A stretch of DNA of 64,000 bases, taken from NCBI GenBank assembly GCA_015207585.1, contig JADEWQ010000008.1, positions 1-64,000 of the forward strand. Reading direction: 5' to 3'. Within the stretch, counting starts at the first letter, position 1. Each line of letters opens with the position of its first letter. The notes below the pieces were generated by a model. The model worked only from the letters and a program-made list of their open reading frames with translations, was not told where the DNA came from and did no database searches. Positions 9,246 to 47,907 of the stretch are shown one piece after another. This stretch comes from Pleurocapsales cyanobacterium LEGE 06147 (GTDB lineage Bacteria; Cyanobacteriota; Cyanobacteriia; Cyanobacteriales; Xenococcaceae). A program made the translations under genes and the position numbers.

Positions 9246-10796
9246 ATGCAAGGCAATGGTAAAGTTTATTTAGTAGGAGCAGGACCTGGAAGTCTTTCCT
9301 ATCTTACTTTGAGGGGTCAACAACTACTTGCTCGCGCCCAAGTACTGATCTATGATGCGTTGGTAGACTTTCAGTTGTTAAATTTAGTACCGTCTGATTG
9401 TCTTAGGCTAGATGTAGGTAAGCGCGGCGGCAAGAAAAGTACGCCACAGACAAAGATAAATCAATTATTAATTGCTTATTGCTTGCAAGGCAAACAGGTA
9501 GTCAGGCTTAAAAGTGGAGATCCTTTAATCTTCGGTCGCGCGAGAGCTGAAATAGAAGCACTACGAGCGGCAGGATGTCCTTTTGAACTCGTACCGGGAA
9601 TCTCTTCGGCTTTAGCTGCACCGCTTCTAGCAGGTATTCCTTTAACAGATAAAGATTGGAGTAGCTGTTTTGCAGTTTTGAGCGGTCATCAGCCGGAAAC
9701 TCTAGATTGGGGAGCTTTAGCAAGAATTGACACGCTGGTAATCTTGATGGGAGGACATACTTTAGAGGAAATTATCCACAGATTACTACAACAAGGGCGA
9801 TCGCCTAGCGAACCCGTTGCCATCATTCGTCATTGTGGTCGTCCCGAACAAAAAGTTTATTGGGGGACTTTAGCCGATATAGTAAAGAAAACCCAGAGTA
9901 TTTCTCTCTCTCCAGCAGTTATCGTTATCGGTAAAGTTGTGGAACTAGGTAATCGTTTCGATTATATTCAATCTTCACTGTCTCATCATCCTTCCCTTCC
10001 TCTGGCGGGAAAAACTATTCTCGTCACTCGCGCTGCCAAACAATCTAGTCAATTTAAGGATTTACTCCAACAACAAGGTGCAACTGTCATCGACATGCCA
10101 GCATTAGCAATTACACCTCCTTCTAGTTGGGAGGGTTTGGATCGGGCGATCGCCAATTTAAACGATTTCGATTGGTTGATTCTCACTTCTGCTAATGGGG
10201 TAGAGTACTTCTTCAATCGTTTGGCTGCTTTGGGTAATGATGTCCGTGCCTTAGCAGGAATTAAAATTGCCGTAGTGGGTAAAAAAACTGCTGCTACTCT
10301 CAAACAGAAGAATTTACAACCAGACTTTATCCCTCCTGATTTTGTTGCCGATTCTTTAGTCGAGCATTTTCCAGAAACTTTAAGCGATCGCCAAATTCTT
10401 TTTCCTCGGGTGGAAACTGGTGGCAGAGAAGTCTTGGTTAAACAATTAAGCGATCGAGGAGCAAAAGTAGTAGAAGTAGCTGCTTACCAATCTAATTGTC
10501 CGAGAGAAATTGAACCTCATGCTTGGTTTGCTTTACAACAAAGACAAGTAGATGTAATTACTTTTGCTAGTTCTAAAACTGTTAAAAATTTTGCTCGACT
10601 GACCGAAAAAGCTTTAAAAGCCGATCCAAAAGAAACAGTACAATCTCTCTTAGCCAATGTTACTCTTGCTTCTATTGGACCGCAAACTTCTCAAACTTGC
10701 GAAGAACTATTTGGAAGAGTTGATGTAGAAGCAAAAGAGTACACTTTAGAAGGATTAACAGAAGCACTAGTTAAGTTTTTAAACTACAGGGAATAG
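9246..10796 (+). CDS. cobA-hemD: Fused uroporphyrinogen-III C-methyltransferase / uroporphyrinogen-III synthase
   Basis: A 516-residue two-domain enzyme. Residues 1-245 are a SUMT (CobA/SirA type): KVYLVGAGPGSLSYLTLRG, YDALV, RLKSGDPLIFGRA and the VPGISSALAAPLLAGIPLT stretch, which bind S-adenosylmethionine and precorrin. From about residue 255, AGKTILVTRAAKQSSQFKDLLQQQGA begins the HemD fold, with ILTSANGVEYFFNRL and VITFASSKTVKNF as later landmarks. HemD cyclises hydroxymethylbilane to uroporphyrinogen III and the SUMT domain makes precorrin-2 for sirohaem and cobalamin. The fusion therefore spans the branch point. A canonical ATG start is used. cobU is found 43 kb away in the window. Confidence 0.9.
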   Translation: MQGNGKVYLVGAGPGSLSYLTLRGQQLLARAQVLIYDALVDFQLLNLVPSDCLRLDVGKRGGKKSTPQTKINQLLIAYCLQGKQVVRLKSGDPLIFGRARAEIEALRAAGCPFELVPGISSALAAPLLAGIPLTDKDWSSCFAVLSGHQPETLDWGALARIDTLVILMGGHTLEEIIHRLLQQGRSPSEPVAIIRHCGRPEQKVYWGTLADIVKKTQSISLSPAVIVIGKVVELGNRFDYIQSSLSHHPSLPLAGKTILVTRAAKQSSQFKDLLQQQGATVIDMPALAITPPSSWEGLDRAIANLNDFDWLILTSANGVEYFFNRLAALGNDVRALAGIKIAVVGKKTAATLKQKNLQPDFIPPDFVADSLVEHFPETLSDRQILFPRVETGGREVLVKQLSDRGAKVVEVAAYQSNCPREIEPHAWFALQQRQVDVITFASSKTVKNFARLTEKALKADPKETVQSLLANVTLASIGPQTSQTCEELFGRVDVEAKEYTLEGLTEALVKFLNYRE

Positions 10797-11800: not shown

Positions 11801-11807
11801 AGGATAA

Positions 11808-12107
11808 TTGTTAAGGGTAGGGCTGTTTCATTCTGGTAAAAGATAGATGGGGAAATAGGGAAATAGGGGGTTTTTTAGACAAGTCATCTGGATTTTGAGC
11901 TCATTTATCGATTAATATTTTTGGTCAGTCAACAAATTGTTAGTAATTTCAGTTGCTTTAACCAGAATAATCAAAAAGACTTGAAAGACTAAATTAACTT
12001 AAAAATAAGTTAATTTCTTGATATCTCCCCATTACACGGACTCCCTATCGCTCTATTTTCTAAAATCGTTAATTTATCGGACTTGGCAACAGCCCTACTT
12101 GTTAAGG
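11808..12107. mobile_element. MITE-like element with 13-bp TIRs and 9-bp target duplication
   Basis: The element spans 11817-12098 (282 bp). Its left end GTAGGGCTGTTTC (11817-11829) and right end GCAACAGCCCTAC (12086-12098) are inverted repeats with one mismatch. Immediately outside, TTGTTAAGG occurs on both sides (11808-11816 and 12099-12107), a perfect 9-bp target-site duplication. There is no transposase frame inside, and the interior is AT-rich. The left end closely resembles the outer end of the ISAs1-type remnant near 47370 (GCAGGACTGTTTCATTCC against GTAGGGCTGTTTCATTCT), so a transposase of that family is the likely mobiliser. Confidence 0.8.
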
Positions 12108-12255
12108 GGGGCTAGGGGGGATCTTGAATAACAGTATTTGTTTGGAGATCCCCCTTGCATCCCCTAAACCTCTCCCTAACCCTCGAATAAATAGGAGAGA
12201 GAACAAAATATCTCCCCTGTTAGAGGAGATTTAGAGGGGTTAGGGCTTGAAAAAA
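12102..12255. repeat. G-rich intergenic inverted repeats (GGGGGGATC / GATCCCCC type)
   Basis: TTAAGGGGGGCTAGGGGGGATC near 12102 is mirrored by GATCCCCCTTGCATCCCCTAA near 12147, and a second pair (CTCTCCCTAACCCTC near 12170 against TAGAGGGGTTAGGG near 12231) lies just beyond. These look like the palindromic intergenic repeats common in many cyanobacteria. The MITE just upstream is inserted at the edge of this repeat. No gene is present. Confidence 0.55.
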
Positions 12256-47367: not shown

Positions 47368-47800
47368 GGCAGGACTGTTTCATTCCACAAGGGCAAGAAG
47401 TTTGTCAAGATCATGAGAGAGAAATCTTTGAGCAGTTGTGATAGAAGCATGACCATTTCGGCGGAGGATGTTGAGAGCGATAGCTCTCAAGAGGGAGAGA
47501 TTTGCGGGGGCATTACCCATACGTATTTTTGAATCATTCTCTTGGAAAACTACGTCTTTAACCCAATGCAGGCAATTTTCAATACACCAATGAGAGCGAA
47601 TATCATAAGTAAATTCTTGTGCTGTGTGAATGAGGCTACTAATGTAACAGACAACCTGATGAGATGGTTTGTCTGCTCGTGTCCCAGTTCTGCTGACTTG
47701 AATTAAAGACTTAATTCCCACCCAGGACGGGTCAATGCCATTCAAATCATCAAAAACTTCTACGGTTCTTGTAGTCAGACGATTCCTAGTTGTCTGAATA
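47368..47800 (-). mobile_element. ISAs1-family remnant (transposase C-terminus and one inverted end)
   Basis: The minus strand reads QTTRNRLTTRTVEVFDDLNG and continues IDPSWVGIKSLIQVSRTGTR, DIRSHWCIENCLHWVKDVVF, QENDSKIRMGNAPANLSLLR to the stop at 47380. This is the C-terminal part of an ISAs1/H-repeat DDE transposase, with the HWxIEN...HWxLDV-like block. Upstream of about 47800 a TAA cuts the frame, so the N-terminal half is missing. The end GCAGGACTGTTTCATTCC, which overlaps the stop codon, looks like the terminal repeat and resembles the MITE end at 11817. Confidence 0.82.
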
Positions 47801-47907
47801 TAATATTAAATCCGTCTAATTAGTTGTAATAAACCCGATTGCCTTAATTCTTTTCTTTCCTTCTGCCCTCTGGAGGGGCTGTGTGGCGGGGGGGGTCCGA
47901 ACGCAGT

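Follow-up and report, generated by a model that had tools for sequence, protein, structure and literature searches.

Nezha is reportedly about 134 bp long and tied to ISNpu3-like elements, and it is said to be moved by an insertion sequence (IS) with matching ends. A passage in a later paper (PMC10969869) cites it as a cyanobacterial MITE (Zhou et al. 2008). ISPlr1 of Planktothrix rubescens, assigned to the ISAs1 family (PMC9366434), has a length of 1423 bp, the ends CAGGGCTGTTTCA/TGAAACAGCCCTG and 10-bp direct repeats, and its only reported sites are REP-like palindromic repeats, rich in G/C, within the mcy cluster (Chen et al. 2016, PMC4766695). For the targeting of REP sequences, Tobes and Pareja (PMC1525189) list the families IS3, IS110, IS4, IS256 and IS5, but not ISAs1; examples are IS1397 and ISKpn1 (IS3), IS621 (IS110) and ISRm22 (IS4). 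Here we describe an element on contig JADEWQ010000008.1 of Pleurocapsales cyanobacterium LEGE 06147, within a stretch of 64,000 nucleotides that was analysed as a whole (the window). With a probability of roughly 0.9, the element is a non-autonomous type I MITE of an ISPlr1-like branch of the ISAs1 family, mobilised by a transposase and inserted in a G/C-rich palindromic intergenic repeat.

Ends, borders and target duplication

Direct reading confirms a segment of 282 bp (positions 11817-12098) that is delimited by 13-bp inverted ends with one mismatch, GTAGGGCTGTTTC from 11817 and GTAGGGCTGTTGC from 12098 on the other strand, as described in the first-pass annotation. The segment is not a product of chance, because the whole 282 bp recurs. 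On both sides it is flanked by TTGTTAAGG (11808-11816 and 12099-12107), which had been described as a perfect 9-bp duplication; the repeat is indeed perfect, but its length is 10 bp (TTGTTAAGGG, 11808-11817 and 12099-12108), or 11 bp if one mismatch is admitted. In related copies the border lies one base beyond AGGG...CCCT (Y-AGGG...CCCT-R), with duplications of 10-13 bp, mostly 11-12 bp, and the base just outside AGGG on the left is C or T in 80 of 80 ends. Judged by these relatives, the MITE of the window more likely reads TAGGG...CCCTA and comprises 280 bp (11818-12097); on the same geometry its duplication is 11 bp long, ATTGTTAAGGG/CTTGTTAAGGG, with one mismatch.

The body of the MITE (11818-12097, plus strand; TAGGGCTGTTTCATTCTGG...GGACTTGGCAACAGCCCTA) is a non-coding, long imperfect fold-back. 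The longest open reading frame touching the 280 bp has 37 amino acids, and there is no transposase gene. The left end (11818-11834, plus strand) corresponds to the ends, AGGGCTGTTTCATTCT, of full-length elements of the ISAs1 type; the right end (12086-12097, minus strand) reads TAGGGCTGTTGC, with one variant base within its first 12, where most relatives have TGTTTCA. The left target-site duplication consists of the 10 perfect bases at 11808-11817, extended to the 11-bp form by position 11807, and the right one occupies 12098-12108, 10 bp being identical to the left copy. The MITE is located between two convergently oriented reading frames. Elsewhere in the window, a single reading frame (9246-10796) combines a uroporphyrinogen methylase (TP_methylase) domain and a HemD domain; it lies immediately upstream of a protein, probably LeuD, that has an aconitase C-terminal domain.

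Copies and unoccupied counterparts

Searching the genome for further copies, as the first-pass annotation had proposed, yields three that are near-complete with respect to the 282-bp query, on contigs C218 (239 bp), C4 (371 bp) and C11 (left end worn, with CCGGTTCAAGGG on either side), as well as several fragments (C24, C174, C93, C240 and C32). Intact ends, a target duplication and multiple copies, as expected for a MITE, are hence all found. Matches extend to 17 of 60 related genomes and 9 of 40 genera, a tally in which the own genome may be counted. When named genomes are scanned for the exact pattern, the left end turns up in Xenococcaceae, Microcoleus, Moorena, Tychonema, Kamptonema, Nostoc and Laspinema. 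Fifteen members, one of which comes from Moorena, can be aligned from end to end and have a conserved interior, so that the MITE constitutes a family of its own rather than a collection of deletions that arose independently. On C218, 5 kb from the MITE copy there, lies a cousin of 153 bp (L052, G000:C218:51234-51386); its ends are degenerate and its duplication, CCCTATAATAA, has 11 bp.

The copy on C4 interrupts a repeat unit that is also present without an insertion elsewhere in the same genome. Its flanks on the left and the right agree with contig C70 at 97.8% and 97.3%, C219 at 95.8% and 97.2%, and C191 at 93.8% and 97.3%, respectively, and at all three counterparts the two flank matches overlap by exactly 12 bp, CCCTTTGTAAGG. 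This overlap demonstrates insertion with duplication for the sibling on C4, not for the copy in the window. Among the related genomes searched, none of which is of the same genus, the leuD loci that were fetched do not carry these ends, and the homologue of the small downstream reading frame and leuD are found on different contigs; therefore only paralogous empty sites are possible. The outcome named beforehand as speaking against a MITE, namely no other copies and an unbroken alignment through the region, did not appear: copies exist, and the C4 sibling has paralogous unoccupied sites.

A G/C-rich palindromic target

The first-pass annotation had placed the insertion at the edge of a G-rich repeat, and the element does adjoin GGGGGGCTAGGGGGGATC, which forms one arm of a palindromic G/C-rich repeat unit. 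The copy in the window keeps only the right-hand arm (12103-12122, TAAGGGGGGCTAGGGGGGAT); the left arm is absent. Units of the GGGGGGCTAGGGGGGATC type occur unoccupied elsewhere in the own genome, which also contains 28 perfect CCCCTT-N-AAGGGG palindromes. The flanks of 80 distinct ends are C-rich at 11-16 bases and G-rich at 2-4 bases from the end, corresponding to CCCCTTNNNAAGGG. Both arms (CCC...GG) are present at 26 of the 80 ends versus 0.3% of 15,414 random positions, and the motif is found at 0 of 23 and again 0 of 23 ends of two other ISAs1 end types.

We note that what the flanks show is the motif and not recognition of a hairpin at the target: a half-swap control, in which halves of different sites are joined, gives nearly equal palindrome scores (2.76 versus 2.90), and the C-rich/G-rich motif itself accounts for the palindrome excess. 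A separate observation concerns a compound repeat, GATCCCCCTAAATCCCCCTTNNNAAGGGGG...CCCCCTTGNCAAGGGGGG, on C70, C191, C219, C26, C119 and C217 of the own genome (G000), often comprising two palindromes about 30 bp apart; it is apparently the place at which these elements land.

Transposase-bearing elements with the same ends

The left end of the MITE in the window is identical over AGGGCTGTTTCATTCT to ISAs1-type ends in genomes G009, G026, G373 and G038 and in Laspinema. G026 harbors a transposase-bearing ISAs1 element of 1231 bp with the same ends and an 11-bp duplication, and Laspinema an ISAs1 element of 1360 bp with the same ends, one in-frame stop in its transposase, and the flanks CCCTTAAAAAGG/CCCTTAATAAGG. 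Six copies of 1198 bp in G373 (transposase frames open over about 400 codons) and two copies of 1199 bp in G038 (frames likewise open) have these ends as well; by inspection, all eight are flanked by palindrome arms of the CCCCCCTT...AAGGGGGG type. Their duplications are 11-12 bp long in 6 of 8 cases, and in the other two the flanks stem from unlike palindromes. The partner elements match the ISAs1 transposase model NF033564. The ISAs1 link drawn in the first-pass annotation is therefore upheld, by full-length family members with the same ends and by the remnant discussed below. The advised check for a full-length element succeeded in other genomes, but the own assembly contains only ISAs1 fragments: no intact transposase of this group was found on its 244 contigs, from which copies could be missing. 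The copy in the window is thus probably immobile at present.

End pairing was based on strict matching, as loose matching gave many chance pairs; for classic ISAs1 copies, de novo end finding gave ends at four loci only. A tree of the transposase C-terminal part (116 columns, deep forks unresolved) does not gather all elements with these ends in one clade; their transposases fall into a number of small clades, most of them well supported, that lie apart from the classic CAGGGTAA group. Two further observations were made among these elements. At 494-664 of locus L292 (G373:C1) there is a short element with same-type ends on both sides, and a full-length IS copy with the same ends is located about 130 bp away. 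Genome G015 (L128, L130 and further copies) has nine matches to one ISAs1 type, which score identically and contain several in-frame stops; two copies that were read have 9-bp duplications, TCTTTGGAT and GTCCTCCAG. This element, itself disabled, may owe its multiplication to a transposase produced elsewhere.

As a mechanism, we propose that the DDE transposase of a full-length relative would recognise ends of the TAGGGCTGTTTC type and would mobilise the MITE in trans; the MITE would insert close to the middle of an intergenic palindromic repeat rich in G/C (consensus CCCCTTNNNAAGGGG), and insertion would duplicate about 11 bp of the target. The MITE has only about 16 terminal bases in common with the transposase-bearing elements, and its interior is unrelated to theirs, as would also be the case if a transposase of another family, sharing a CAGGG-like end by chance, had moved it. 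We regard such a coincidence as very unlikely: the 16-base identity of the ends, the target preference and the 11-12 bp duplication are all common to the MITE and the transposase-bearing ISAs1 elements, but absent from the two other ISAs1 end types in these genomes.

Relationship to the ISAs1 remnant in the window

The window also contains an ISAs1-family remnant (47369-47802, minus strand), which consists of the end GCAGGACTGTTTCATTCC and the last 140 transposase codons and adjoins CCCTTCTTAAGG. The encoded C-terminus matches NF033564 with an E value of 1.8e-29 and is 43% identical to the G373 transposase over 138 amino acids. In the transposase tree the remnant clusters with L284 and C204, the latter from the own genome (support 100/98). 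L284 is its closest full-length relative, with ends CAGGGCTGTTTCATTCCACAAG within CCCCCCTT..AAGG sequence.

The reported resemblance of the first 18 bases of the MITE to the end of the remnant holds at 15 of 18 positions, and both adjoin sequence of the CCCTT..AAGG type. The MITE might accordingly be thought an internal-deletion derivative of the exact IS left at 47369; this origin is highly improbable, since the similarity does not extend beyond about 17 bases, the interior of the MITE family is its own and is conserved across genera, and the ends of the remnant and of L284 continue CATTCCACAAG whereas those of the MITE continue CATTCTGGTAAAA. Nor is the interior of the MITE an internal deletion of any IS examined. 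Because the two differ past the first 17 bases, the remnant is not demonstrably the parent of the MITE; it is a relative within the same broad group of end type and target type. The last alternative, a conserved structured RNA or regulatory element whose repeat-like ends are incidental, draws on a fold of the 280 bp far better than that of shuffled sequences (z -5.7) and on the conservation of the interior across genera, but has the slimmest chance, as copies occur at unrelated loci with flanking duplications, an Rfam search of the element gave no match, the consensus fold consists for the most part of the terminal inverted repeat, with a weak inner helix in addition, and the element sits between convergent frames.

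Split transposase frames in cyanobacterial ISAs1 elements

A total of 28 distinct cyanobacterial ISAs1 transposase genes switch reading frame at roughly the same codon. The change coincides with a run of seven adenines (A7) and a second frame of +1 in 17 of the 28 genes, and with A8 and a second frame of -1 in eight. The loci include L111, L119, L121, L126, L162, L273, L277, L281, L318, L322 and others, as well as L055 of the own genome (G000:C141); the partner-type elements of G026 and G009 are of the A8 type. Several of the split elements are multi-copy within one genome, with seven matches in G260 and six in G352. Recoding is favoured over decay because run length and position are consistent, and the pattern suggests programmed slippage or frameshifting. 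No report of ISAs1 recoding was found among the best-ranked literature matches, judged by title, abstract and term counts. A more general proposal, for which we see somewhat less than even odds, is that a widespread cyanobacterial ISAs1 branch and its satellite MITEs would be site-specific for REP-like palindromes as a safe haven, with duplications of 11-12 bp, and that many ISAs1 members would recode at A7/A8.

Comparison with known systems

The element in the window is in itself ordinary. As ISPlr1 has already been published with this behaviour, the MITE represents a well-supported new example, not a new kind. Its interest lies in carrying the ISPlr1 target rule over to a family of MITEs and, in several genera of cyanobacteria, to elements that bear a transposase. 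A demonstrated empty site and a countable target motif provide a ready system for studying how an ISAs1 transposase chooses palindromes, and part of the clutter of G/C-rich repeats in cyanobacterial intergenic regions is thereby accounted for.

Nezha, as described above, resembles the MITE of the window in being a cyanobacterial MITE linked to an IS with matching ends, and differs in its reported length and its tie to ISNpu3-like elements. With IS1397, ISKpn1, IS621 and ISRm22 the MITE has palindromic extragenic repeats as targets in common, ISRm22 being inserted at the axis of palindromy, but their transposases belong to families other than ISAs1. The likeness to ISPlr1 comprises ends of the CAGGGCTGTTTCA type, duplications just outside them, G/C-rich REP-like palindromes as targets and a cyanobacterial host. 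The differences are that ISPlr1 carries a transposase on its 1423 bp, whereas the MITE has none; that a 10-bp duplication is reported for ISPlr1, compared with 10 perfect bp in the window and 10-13 bp, mostly 11-12 bp, in the relatives; and that the MITE has T as its terminal base and a variant base in the TGTTTC stretch of its right end.
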